Of a stretch of 20,558 nucleotides of DNA, positions 126 through 20,558 are shown piece by piece. The notes beneath the pieces were generated by a model. It ran no database searches. It had not been told where the DNA came from and was given only the letters and a program-made list of their open reading frames with translations. The translations under genes were made by a program, and so were the position numbers. Every line of letters begins with the position of its first letter. Positions within the stretch are counted from its first letter, which is position 1. Where the stretch lies: the NCBI GenBank assembly GCA_024278345.1, contig JAJRTK010000371.1, positions 1 to 20,558 on the forward strand, written 5' to 3'. This DNA is from a bacterium. Its GTDB lineage: Bacteria; CSSED10-310; JAJRTK01.

Positions 126-400
126 GCTCACGCCCCTTCCATCCGCCTCCGGTCGAAGCTCCAGGCGATCCCGCCGAAACCGCCCACCGCCAGCCTCCAG
201 AAAAAGCGCTAAAAAAAGCTTCTTCCCAGTTCTTTTTCCATCATAATGTCTCGTGCCGCCGCGTCAAGGAACGCACTATGCCAGCTCCCCACGGCCATGG
301 CGTGCGGGAGGGCTTCGCGCCCACGGTACGCGGCATGGAGACCGGTCAACGAGCCCTCAAGGCGTCCCGCTACCCGAAATACGGGCGCCCTGCAATCCCC
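126..400. other. Intergenic stretch without a convincing gene
   Basis: This is the left part of a gap of about 690 bases (126-814) between the truncated minus-strand gene and the HEAT-repeat gene. Several reading frames are open here only because the DNA is GC-rich; their translations are low-complexity and rich in R, P and G, with no recognisable motif. The A-rich segment around 199-240 is the least GC-rich part and is the likeliest promoter zone for one of the divergent genes, but no consensus promoter could be assigned. The rest of the gap holds the repeats and hairpins listed separately. Confidence 0.4.
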
Positions 401-576
401 GGTGGTGCTCCAGCCCTGTGGCAATGGATCGAAGGCGGCGACAATGGCGAGGAGCGGTCGCCGCGGGGAACTCGTGCCAAAGGCACGGGTCGATCCCGAT
501 GTGAGCGGAACGCAACACAAAGAAAACACAGGGTTTGCCGACAACTCAGCCCTAAAAGAAGATCTCGACCCAATCC
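401..576 (+). repeat. Dispersed intergenic repeat Y, copy A
   Basis: This is one of three long copies of a repeat also found at 11217-11370 (plus) and 13885-14043 (minus). It opens with GGTGGTGCTCC, passes through a GGCAATGGATCGAAGGCGGCGA-like segment and a hairpin, and then reaches the best-conserved block at 498-525. That block is identical over 28 bases to 11291-11318. Copy A differs in the hairpin: between the conserved CGG (455-457) and CCG (496-498) it carries a longer insert with its own stem, CGTGCC (473-478) pairing with GGCACG (482-487) around an AAA loop. The tail (about 550-576) again resembles the other copies. It points toward the HEAT-repeat gene 240 bases downstream. Confidence 0.85.
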
Positions 577-600
577 GGGGCTGGCGGGCCTCCTTCCCGG

Positions 601-649: not shown

Positions 650-699
650 TTTCGGCGAAGAAAATTGTAAAGCAAAAACACGACAATTTGATAGGTCCC
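650..699 (+). repeat. Element Z, left copy (perfect inverted match to the right window end)
   Basis: These 50 bases are identical, in reverse complement, to the last 50 bases of the window (20509-20558). The element is much more AT-rich than its surroundings and contains its own inverted repeat, AAATTGT (662-668) with ACAATTT (683-689). It lies just upstream of the HEAT-repeat gene's open frame and is not coding. It may be part of a composite repeat together with Y and the palindromes at 601-643. Confidence 0.85.
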
Positions 700-7023: not shown

Positions 7024-7362
7024 GCGGTTGGAAAGACCGACTGAACGTGGCTTTCCACGCCCGGGCAGGCCGGACAGGGCGTCACCGGGAACTGCCTGTG
7101 GAGCGCGGCTTCTCCGATGGCGATGGCGGCAAAAGGGGCGAGTAGCGGTGGGCCGGACGGCCGCCGATGGGAGCGGAACGCAAGGCGGAAAAAGAACGTT
7201 CCAGAAAGGACGCATGGCGATGCAGTCACCTCGTAGAGCAGCGAACTTCCGGCGTATGTTTTTTTTGTGGTAAGCCAGGACCGAAGGCGGAAGCGGTTCC
7301 TTCCTGGTGGGGGACGACCCACCCTTCTCTTTATGACCCAAGGAACGAGATGAGAGGATGCC
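7024..7362 (+). repeat. Intergenic gap with repeat Y copy D (core 7121-7195)
   Basis: This gap of 339 bases holds no gene. A small hairpin, CGTGG/CCACG, lies near 7047-7060. Bases 7121-7195 are a partial Y repeat. They include GGGGCGAGTAGCGG, a hairpin with CGG (7146-7148) and GGCC (7151-7154) pairing to GGCC (7159-7162) and CCG (7164-7166) around a GGAC loop, then GATGGGAGCGGAACGCAA. The copy diverges after that. Eight T residues at 7259-7266 follow no clear stem, so they are not called a terminator. The copy points toward gpmI. Confidence 0.65.
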
Positions 7363-11216: not shown

Positions 11217-11370
11217 GGCGTTACTCCGGCCCCGGGGGCAGAGGATCGAAAGCGGCGATAAGGGCGAGCAGCGGGTGCCGGACGGCGACCGATGTGAGCG
11301 GAACGCAACACAAAGAAAGCAAAGAGTTGACCGGGATTCAATTCCTAAGCGAAGAGCAGATCAACCCACC
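11217..11370 (+). repeat. Dispersed intergenic repeat Y, copy B
   Basis: This copy lies in the divergent gap between the glycosyltransferase (minus) and moaC (plus), and ends 16 bases before the moaC GTG. The hairpin is CGG (11272-11274), two bases, GCC (11277-11279), loop GGAC, GGC (11284-11286), two bases, CCG (11289-11291), with a G-T wobble in the interior. The conserved block 11291-11318 is identical to copy A. Since both flanking genes point outward, this copy cannot be a 3' end element of a neighbouring gene on its own strand. Confidence 0.85.
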
Positions 11371-11386
11371 GCCAGGAGACGAAATT

Positions 11387-11866
11387 GTGAGGACTTTCAC
11401 TCATCTGGATGAAGATGGAAAGGCACGGATGGTGGACATCAGCGACAAACAACCCACCCTCCGGGAAGCAATCGCGGAAAGCCGCGTCACCTTCTCAGAC
11501 TCCGTTTACCAGACGGTCAGGGCCGGGAGAGTCGCCAAAGGGGAAATCGTTTCCGTTGCCCGCCTGGCCGGGATCATGGGGGCAAAAAAGACGTCCGATC
11601 TCATTCCCTTGTGCCACCCGATCCCCCTGACCTCCGTTGCCCTTGATTTTCAATACCATGACGAGCACCGCGACCTCATCATCCAGGCGACAGCCCGGAC
11701 CAGAAACCGAACCGGTGTGGAAATGGAGGCGCTCACCGCGGTGGCCATCGCGGCTTTGGCCGTGTATGACATGTGCAAGGCACTGGACAAGGGCATGGAA
11801 ATCGGCCCGATCCGCCTCCTTAGAAAGAGTGGAGGCAAGAGCGGCGATTGGCGCCGTGAACCCTAG
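11387..11866 (+). CDS. moaC: Cyclic pyranopterin monophosphate synthase (molybdenum cofactor)
   Basis: MoaC converts the MoaA product into cyclic pyranopterin monophosphate, the second half of the first step of molybdenum cofactor synthesis. The 159-residue product shows the family signature throughout: F-T-H-L-D-E-D-G-K-A-R-M-V-D-I-S at the start, K-K-T-S-D-L-I-P-L-C-H-P-I-P-L in the middle, and G-V-E-M-E-A-L-T-A-V followed by A-L-A-V-Y-D-M-C-K-A at the end. The GTG start at 11387 gives normal family length and follows AGGAGA by 8 bases. The frame stays open upstream through repeat Y, but that translation is repeat sequence. The moaC stop overlaps the ribosome site of the ParA gene 12 bases on, so the two form an operon. 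No other moa genes are in the window. Confidence 0.95.
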   Translation: MRTFTHLDEDGKARMVDISDKQPTLREAIAESRVTFSDSVYQTVRAGRVAKGEIVSVARLAGIMGAKKTSDLIPLCHPIPLTSVALDFQYHDEHRDLIIQATARTRNRTGVEMEALTAVAIAALAVYDMCKALDKGMEIGPIRLLRKSGGKSGDWRREP

Positions 11867-12730: not shown

Positions 12731-14020
12731 TCAGAATGAGAAGGTGGCTCCGCCGACGATCTCTTCGAAGCCTCCCGTGCGGTTGAGCCGGCCTCCTATG
12801 TCGGCTCGAAAGATCGGCAGCCGAAATCCCATCCCCAAGCTGAAAGCCGTCCCCTGATCGCTATTGAAGTACTGGGTCGTTCCGGAGCGAAAAATGAACA
12901 TGGAAGAGACGCCTCTTTCCAGGCCCAGGGAGATGGCCCGGGTGGAGCGATCCGAACCCATGACGCGGTTGTTGGTAATGTCGAGGTCGATGGTTCCCAC
13001 CGTTTGTTGCCCTGCCTGGTAAGCGATACCCACTCGCACCTGAGCTCCCGGTCCCAATTTTTCCAACCCGCCTTCCCCGGGGTCGGGTACGGCGAACTTG
13101 TCAAACCAGAGGTTCTTCGCCACGATTCCCAGCCGCATCCTACCAGCCGGGATCATGAGCCCCAGATCGAAGGACCAGTCGTCGCTGGAATCCCGAGGCG
13201 TCTCTTCGGAAAGCCGCATCAGATCGCCCGGCTTGTCGGTGGGAACCTCGAAGACGCTGAGCCTGGCGTGGCGAACGCCCCCCTTGTTGTAGTTGAGTGC
13301 GAAGCCAAGGGTAAAGGGGTCGGAAGGATTCATGATGGAAAAAGCCACGGTGTATCGTTCCATGTGGAGCCGATAGGCATCGACAACACTGGCGTTGTTG
13401 GCGATGGAACGTGGCTCCACCGGATCGCCGGGAAAGATGCGCCAATTGTCTGAGACGCCCACGAGCTCCCAGTATTCCAGGTTGCTGTAACCGATGGCCA
13501 ACTTGTCTCCAGTCATGGCGTAGCTCGTCTGGCGGAAGTCCCGGGCCGTTTTCTGGTCCATATCCAGGAGCAAGTCGGTGAGATCAGACGTCCGCCCGGG
13601 GCTGAGGTAGACGAAGGGGTCTTGGGGGTTGACGCGGCGGATGAGATCCAGCTCCTTGTCGATCTCCTCGGTATTCTCAGAGAATCCGCTCTGGGCGTAG
13701 GCGATCTGGAATTGACTGCTGTAACTCAACCCCGCCGGATTCATCCAAAGGGCGTCGGGACCCGAGGCAGTGGCAGTGATGGCCCCGCCCAAGGCAATGG
13801 CGCGAGGGGAAAGGAGCACGAATTCGCCCCCTTCCGCGCCACCAGCAAGAAGAAACAAACTTGCCAGCAAGAGAAAGATCGCCCGGTTGGGAGTAGATTG
13901 TGCTCTTCGTCTAGGGCGTAGATCTCGGCAACCCTTATGCTTTCTTCGTGTTGAGTTCCGCTCGCATCGGCGGCAGTCCGTCCGCCGCTGCTCGCCATTG
14001 TTGAGGCACTCGTCATCCAT
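12731..14020 (-). CDS. Outer-membrane beta-barrel protein (PorV/FadL-like)
   Basis: The conserved part starts with a hydrophobic signal segment (FLLLASLFLLAGGAEGG) followed by S-P-R-A-I-A-L-G-G-A, then D-A-L-W-M-N-P-A-G-L. That opening is typical of PorV/PorQ, TraF-like and FadL-related outer-membrane barrels. The rest alternates short amphipathic strands and ends in ...G-G-A-T-F-S-F with a C-terminal phenylalanine, the usual barrel-assembly signal. It is probably a transporter or secretion-associated porin; the substrate is unknown. The start is a problem: no ATG or GTG lies directly before the signal segment, only TTG 13870, and repeat Y copy C ends 15 bases upstream. The given start (ATG 14020) is the nearest in-frame ATG and lies inside the repeat, so about 45 residues may be repeat-derived or not translated. 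The gene follows acs with 103 bases between. Confidence 0.7.
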   Translation of the reverse strand: MDDECLNNGEQRRTDCRRCERNSTRRKHKGCRDLRPRRRAQSTPNRAIFLLLASLFLLAGGAEGGEFVLLSPRAIALGGAITATASGPDALWMNPAGLSYSSQFQIAYAQSGFSENTEEIDKELDLIRRVNPQDPFVYLSPGRTSDLTDLLLDMDQKTARDFRQTSYAMTGDKLAIGYSNLEYWELVGVSDNWRIFPGDPVEPRSIANNASVVDAYRLHMERYTVAFSIMNPSDPFTLGFALNYNKGGVRHARLSVFEVPTDKPGDLMRLSEETPRDSSDDWSFDLGLMIPAGRMRLGIVAKNLWFDKFAVPDPGEGGLEKLGPGAQVRVGIAYQAGQQTVGTIDLDITNNRVMGSDRSTRAISLGLERGVSSMFIFRSGTTQYFNSDQGTAFSLGMGFRLPIFRADIGGRLNRTGGFEEIVGGATFSF

Positions 14021-14043
14021 TGCCCCGAGGCCGGAGCACCACC
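13885..14043 (-). repeat. Dispersed intergenic repeat Y, copy C
   Basis: This copy runs on the minus strand from GGTGGTGCTCC (14043-14033) to CCCAACC (13891-13885), directly upstream of the outer-membrane protein's signal segment. The hairpin is CGGCGG pairing with CCGCCG (13968-13973 and 13982-13987) around an 8-base loop that contains GGAC. The conserved block 13941-13968 matches copies A and B with a few changes. It lies between acs and the barrel gene, all on the minus strand. Confidence 0.85.
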
Positions 14044-20302: not shown

Positions 20303-20558
20303 TCTTTGTTCTGGGCGTCACAGGGAAGGCTGAGCACCGAGCGGAGCAGGCACGAAGAGAATTTCTGGAAGGGTACTCCACCCAAGAGGCTCTGTCGATA
20401 AACCTCCGCATGGTTGTGTCGGGTATCCACGCAAGGCGGGACAATGGCTCGGCGGGAAGAAACTCGGCCTCGGCCAACGCCGCGCTCCGCTGGGCGGGTC
20501 ACGCCGTGGGGACCTATCAAATTGTCGTGTTTTTGCTTTACAATTTTCTTCGCCGAAA
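20303..20558. other. Right-end intergenic region with motif X and element Z
   Basis: No gene is supported in the last 256 bases. The minus-strand frame over this region has no recognisable motif. Motif X lies at 20423-20444 and matches 14085-14106 (other strand) at 20 of 22 positions. Bases 20509-20558 are element Z, a perfect inverted copy of 650-699, and the window stops inside or at the edge of it. That is typical of an assembly break at a repeat. Confidence 0.7.

Follow-up and report, generated by a model that had tools for sequence, protein, structure and literature searches.

Copies of the intergenic repeat Y form a family of two nested layers, an inner core of about 60-70 nt and an outer element of 146 bp (up to about 170 bp), and the family is probably a lineage-specific mobile structured repeat whose antisense insertions in gene leaders have been partly purged. 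The window, which is the whole 20,558-nt stretch of DNA analysed, is contig C301 of a 6.06 Mb draft genome that comprises 550 contigs, is 88% complete and is fragmented at repeats. All four copies of repeat Y were present in the window where the first-pass annotation had placed them, and the sequence they share is far above chance. When copy B was compared with its own genome using BLAST, the best 40 of 368 candidates spanned E-values from 1e-75 to 4e-20. The positions first assigned to the copies were retained, and their ends were refined by profile and end analysis to 401-570 (A), 11217-11363 (B), 13896-14043 (C) and 7132-7202 (core-only copy). The features are listed below in order of position.

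393..400, no strand, left target-site duplication of copy A (CAATCCCC), identical in 6 of 8 bases to its partner at 571-578
401..570, + strand, copy A, full-length, long-hairpin type (nhmmer 106 bits, profile positions 1-140; ends and flanks inspected)
441..534, + strand, core of copy A (covariance model R1 46.9 bits, E=6e-12; fold z=-2.9)
571..578, no strand, right target-site duplication of copy A (CAATCCGG)
7132..7202, + strand, core-only copy, previously termed a partial copy, in the tandem gap upstream of gpmI (R1 63.7 bits, E=1.4e-17; nhmmer 7120-7195)
11217..11363, + strand, copy B, full-length, between divergent genes and upstream of moaC (nhmmer 107.5 bits)
11258..11327, + strand, core of copy B (R1 74.9 bits, E=2.5e-21; fold)
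13896..14043, - strand, copy C, full-length, in the tandem gap between an acetyl-CoA-synthetase-like gene and a barrel-protein gene (nhmmer 113.4 bits)
13932..14001, - strand, core of copy C (R1 77.8 bits, E=2.7e-22; fold)

Copy A begins with GGTGGTGCTCC and ends with GATCTCGACC, and its core contains the extended stem CTCGTGCC-AAA-GGCACGGG. The core of copy B has a hairpin at 11264-11299 followed by the conserved tail GGAACGCAACACAAAGAAA, and that of copy C has the hairpin GGCGG-ACGGACTG-CCGCC. The identical block common to A and B, reported as 28 bases, extends over 30 (CCGATGTGAGCGGAACGCAACACAAAGAAA). Inspection of the flanks revealed no recognisable target duplication at copies B and C, and copy A is the only copy in the window with one. 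Neither an intrinsic terminator nor a sigma-70 promoter was detected in copy B by consensus scan. The distance of 15-16 bases by which copies B and C were said to precede the coding start depends on the predicted start codons. For moaC this is a GTG at 11387, although its reading frame remains open upstream as far as another GTG, at 11294, which lies within the repeat; the barrel-protein gene is predicted to start at a TTG near 13870.

Other repeats were observed near the copies. A second repeat family is represented by 50 identical bases (TTTCGGCGAAGAAAATTGTAAAGCAAAAACACGACAATTTGATAGGTCCC) at window positions 650-699 (+) and 20509-20558 (-), the end of the window falling inside the latter copy; AATTTGATAGGTCCC, which belongs to this family, occurred 18 times in the 1.75 Mb of the genome that was examined. 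Directly upstream of the repeat at 650-699, at about 618-648, lies a GGCAAGATGCCGGTGCCAC palindromic repeat, whose 18-base form (GCAAGATGCCGGTGCCAC) occurred 48 times in the same 1.75 Mb. Read in one frame, this palindrome yields the spurious protein end GTGILPV, which is common in annotations. A further dispersed sequence, GGTCATGGTACCGGCCAC..., was seen just downstream of the cores in loci L205, L069 and L198 and was found 53 times in 1.75 Mb, sometimes adjoining a core.

The 1.75 Mb was examined in stretches, and most of the contigs were picked because they carry copies. A profile made from the copies gave 279 matches there, about 80 of them near full length, and 267 cores were tabulated. 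About 30% of the sampled copies, A, B and C among them, had the outer element around the core, and the majority of copies consisted of the inner 60-70 nt alone. A core pattern scan of the whole genome returned 496 matches, compared with 55 for the reversed control; the number of short-stem cores is estimated at about 440 per genome, the long-stem type (such as copy A) being additional. Unselected contigs contained 10 cores in 149 kb, which corresponds to about 400 per genome. Although coding sequence makes up 81% of the DNA, just 4 of the 267 cores fell well within predicted genes.

The full-length form has sharp ends (5' GGTGGTGCTCC, 3' GAAGAGCACGACC) with the inverted termini GGTSGTGCTC. These terminal inverted repeats are short and imperfect, the 5' GGTGGTGCTC agreeing in 9 of 10 bases with the reverse complement (GGTCGTGCTC) of the 3' GAGCACGACC. 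Directly outside the ends there are 8-bp direct repeats: 7 or 8 of the 8 flank bases matched in 11 of 34 full-length copies, compared with a mean of 0.45 copies and a maximum of 4 in 20,000 permutations of the flanks. An unbiased scan of all left and right flank offsets peaked at the element ends only, and for full-length copies only. The target site is roughly CRAWTYYS and is near-palindromic. With its sharp ends, its inverted termini and its duplication of an 8-bp target, the full-length form is clearly a MITE-like non-autonomous DNA transposon by structural criteria, and at 146-170 bp it is too short to encode a transposase. The mobility that the first-pass annotation had offered as an alternative is thus borne out by the sharp ends, inverted termini and duplications, and the insertion bias that it had attached to that mobility is not expected at a near-palindromic target.

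A search of 1.33 Mb of this genome, which is 88% complete and fragmented at repeats, for pairs of terminal inverted repeats with credible ends around an internal gene returned none, and no transposase sharing the ends of Y was found. An IS1595 transposase adjoins a Y copy in contig C322 and was considered as a parent, but both IS1595 copies in the genome end in GGCTCTATATGCGATCC; since these ends differ from those of Y, the neighbourhood in C322 is regarded as coincidental. ISL3 was represented by fragments only. At L156:12810-13010, next to the decayed remains of an IS1595 transposase, a second Y-like 3' end (GCGCCCTGGACGGAGAGCACGATC) comes after a full-length Y copy, an arrangement that suggests insertion of one Y into an older Y.

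The inner core has the layout GGCGA-GYRG-C, a 7-bp stem with a GGAY loop, G-AYGN-GAGCGGA and the tail AACGCAACCCAAAGAAA. It folds as an irregular hairpin with two outer G-C pairs, tandem G.A/A.G, Y-G, R-Y, G.A and an apical stem, after which comes a conserved single-stranded tail. A total of 57 diverse cores could be aligned without gaps, and the 7-bp stem was found to be repeatedly rewritten with its pairing kept (GTGTGGC/GCCACAC, GGCAGCA/TGCTGCC, GCCCGCC/GGCGGGC). The covariation score of this alignment was 0.476, compared with 0.208 in shuffles (0/500), figures that lean towards structure because the alignment was chosen for pairing. Pairing was therefore also assessed without this bias in 177 copies picked by a flanking motif, in which 1713 pairing cells were Watson-Crick, 184 were G-U and 2 were A-C. 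The outer pair at columns 13-36 was A-U in 99 of these copies and G-C in 73, and G9.A40 and A10.G39 were nearly invariant. The hairpin recognised in the first-pass annotation is accordingly real, as judged from covariation, the R1 model and the folds. Because G-U is common and A-C almost absent, it is one strand, the + strand of the repeat, that folds alone; a cruciform formed by both DNA strands would accept G-T and A-C to the same extent, each being the complement of the other. Taken from base counts, this asymmetry fits a folding strand of either RNA or single-stranded DNA. Some cores belong to a long-hairpin subtype that carries an additional GGGGAACTCGYGCC-NNN-GGCRCGGGTC stem; it was found at window 401-570, in L149, L071 and L158, and in others, and a paired T-A to C-G change occurred between its copies. 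In L213 and L091, the subtype resembles a partial duplication of the 5' half of the core.

In core-only copies with unrelated flanks, the unpaired GGCGA, GAGCGGA and CAAC were strongly conserved, and cores that were 95-100% identical between core-only pairs were found in unrelated flanks. No target duplication was detected at core-only copies in the scan of all flank offsets. Since these copies have neither target duplications nor related flanks, the transposon does not explain how, or indeed whether, the core spreads by itself; either another mechanism copies the core, or the core is kept for a function that is independent of the neighbouring gene.

One such mechanism would be that of a REP-type element, in which a RAYT (HuH tyrosine transposase) moves the core as single-stranded DNA and the hairpin serves as the recognition structure. 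The hundreds of intergenic hairpins, the compensatory stem changes and the G-T pairs are as in REPs (PMC3733652), and core-only copies that have no target duplications are what single-strand transposition predicts. One RAYT-like gene was found in the genome (NF047646, 67 bits; NCBIfam cut-off 80), with a weak core match (33 bits) overlapping its 3' end and none found at its 5' side; this neighbour is weak evidence, because by a rough estimate chance alone would place a core close to the end of about 10% of genes. Set against a REP-type origin are the lack of an invariant GTAG foot (GTGG in 47, GCAG in 35 and GTAG in 32 of 165 cores), in columns that covary with the 3' side, and the conserved 3' tail of about 20 nt, which is absent from REPs as described. 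Close pairs (<200 nt) numbered only 5 among the 267 cores, so that there is no BIME arrangement, and divergent gaps are not avoided. A REP-type element is therefore considered quite unlikely. As a separate observation, the RAYT-like gene (L228:1012-1737) contains in mid-gene two in-frame copies of the palindrome GGGCGGGTTCGGAACCCGCCCCTAC, which give the impression of a different REP residing within that gene.

For the analysis of orientation, genes were called with a simple home-made codon-usage caller, and stops were placed inside the repeats so that none could extend genes. An earlier census with different gene masking led to the same conclusion and was replaced by the census of 267 cores. 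Relative to the nearest gene start, 145 cores in the 1.75 Mb were sense and 70 antisense (p=3.5e-7). The ratio was 67:25 where only gene starts adjoin and 78:45 in tandem gaps, and there was no bias where only gene ends adjoin (23:29). At gene starts, full-length copies (46:22) and core-only copies (99:48) were both predominantly sense, and in divergent gaps the copies were closer to the gene they point at (36:14). Within the window, all four copies do have the orientation of the next gene. The generalisation that the repeat always points toward the next gene fails, as 70 of the 215 copies at gene starts have the opposite orientation and 30 copies occupy gaps between convergent genes. Copies A and B do lie between divergent genes, a position that had been correctly noted, but they are uninformative on orientation because a repeat in a divergent gap has a co-oriented gene ahead of it whichever way it faces; in the window, only the two copies in tandem gaps are informative. 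Random orientation genome-wide, which the first-pass annotation had named as speaking against its proposal, was not observed: orientation was biased, neither random nor fixed.

One version of that proposal, a shared 5' leader or cis-regulatory RNA, is a domesticated genome-wide cis-regulatory RNA: the core would be transcribed as part of 5' leaders, would bind a protein or ligand and would thereby control hundreds of genes, the transposon having only spread it. It draws on the sense bias, which is specific to gene starts, on the single-strand constraint with G-U but not A-C, and on the conservation of the unpaired segments in core-only copies with unrelated flanks. A function as a sense leader only would lead antisense and 3'-only copies to decay, and such decay was not seen: the proportion of pairs kept was 0.965 in sense-5', 0.966 in antisense-5' and 0.976 in 3'-only positions, and core scores were alike across gene contexts. 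Because the structure is equally intact in all three positions, a dedicated leader element is disfavoured. In addition, the distribution of copies over tandem, divergent and convergent gaps (123:51:30) follows that of the gaps themselves (299:136:70), one third of the copies at gene starts are antisense, 23 of the 30 copies between convergent genes are core-only, and the census of 267 cores gave no fixed distance from core to start codon. The apical loop contains GGA in 159 of 177 copies and suggests CsrA, yet no CsrA gene (PF02599) was found in the 88%-complete genome by a search that found it in 3 control genomes, and the reading of the loop as a CsrA site was rejected since the genome has no detected CsrA. 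Genome-wide cis-regulation is thus judged unlikely. It is rather unlikely that repeat Y is a transposon-spread riboregulator, in which a miniature transposon seeded a structured RNA module that was then taken over as a leader element for many genes; if this were true, one protein or ligand would control hundreds of transcripts in an uncultured phylum.

The sense bias might instead be made at insertion, for example through a preference for the strand that transcription bubbles or R-loops lay bare close to gene starts, with no selection on orientation. Its confinement to the surroundings of gene starts agrees with this, but full-length copies, which duplicate 8 bp symmetrically at near-palindromic targets in a DDE-like manner, are nevertheless biased 46:22, and the orientation was uncorrelated with third-position GC skew, which served as a rough proxy for the direction of replication. 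A bias made at insertion is accordingly held to be very improbable. Since 8-bp duplications at near-palindromic sites imply symmetric insertion, and full-length copies are nevertheless equally biased, selection is the better candidate for the cause of the bias. In the favoured reading, that of a mobile structured repeat with partial purging, the outer unit would be moved by a DDE-type transposase acting in trans and would insert with no orientation preference, the target being roughly palindromic. The 2:1 sense bias would most likely arise after insertion, through selection against an antisense form that is presumably more harmful in a transcribed leader, and the folded strand would be RNA.

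Occurrence outside this genome was assessed with several sequence collections. The phylum is sparsely sampled, and the 7 other phylum genomes compared included none of the same family. Among 290 genomes (the source, 7 phylum mates and 282 others), the core was found only in the source genome under stricter filters, and no core match was obtained in IMG/VR viral contigs and plasmids by the tests used. In Rfam 15 there was no match to the window at gathering score, and three loci that carry cores gave none of relevance even with E-values up to 5 admitted. No Rfam entry covers repeat Y, and the family did not turn up in any of the other genomes searched. An exact 21-base core pattern gave two matches in 84,980 species genomes (257 Gb), where about two are expected by chance; these matches, in Ralstonia and Methylopila, were rejected on account of this chance-level number and of R1 scores of only 20 and 15 bits. 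BLAST matches in the phylum mate G003 were likewise rejected as related repeats, as only about 37 bases are common with Y, one match that was inspected lay in coding-like DNA, and R1 gave none.

Descriptions of small mobile repeats usually treat them as palindromes at the DNA level. Bacterial MITEs (NEMIS/Correia, ERIC, RUP, YPAL, CIR) resemble repeat Y in being non-coding, intergenic elements of 100-200 bp with terminal inverted repeats, target duplications and transcripts that are predicted to fold, and an orientation-dependent effect on mRNA stability has been reported for ERIC (PMC2229807). Repeat Y differs from them in its 8-bp duplications at CRAWTYYG-like sites, TA termini being common in the listed families, in having as its conserved structure an internal irregular hairpin and not end-to-end pairing, and in that most of its cores lack transposon ends. 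REPs, which are GTAG- or CGTC-tagged and RAYT-mobilised, share with Y the hundreds of intergenic copies, G+C-rich hairpins, complementary stem variants, G-T pairs and a RAYT-like gene in the genome (PMC3733652, PMC8266576). Unlike REPs, Y has neither an invariant GTAG or CGTC foot, nor a paired BIME arrangement, nor a shift away from divergent gaps, and it has an additional conserved 5' GGCGA and 3' GAGCGGAACGCAACCCAAAGAAA; it was not classed as a REP because GTAG occurs in only 32 of 165 cores, there is no paired arrangement and the long 3' tail is conserved. The MRSC-type motifs (mobile/repeat sequence candidates), such as MRSC-65-2 (PMC11109978), likewise have a covarying single stem, many copies per genome and inconsistent orientation; compared by description, MRSC-65-2 has UYCCGG repeats and occurs in diverse phyla, whereas the Y core was seen in one genome. 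CsrA/RsmA-binding hairpins also present GGA in an apical loop, but Y lies away from the ribosome-binding site and has ANGGA in only 75 of 177 copies. What sets repeat Y apart is the combination of several hundred copies in one genome, a structural constraint on a single strand and an orientation that is filtered only in front of genes. It thereby allows one to ask, as in a natural experiment, under what conditions a leader tolerates an inserted structure, and it provides a concrete case for testing whether networks of regulatory RNA can be seeded by a transposon.
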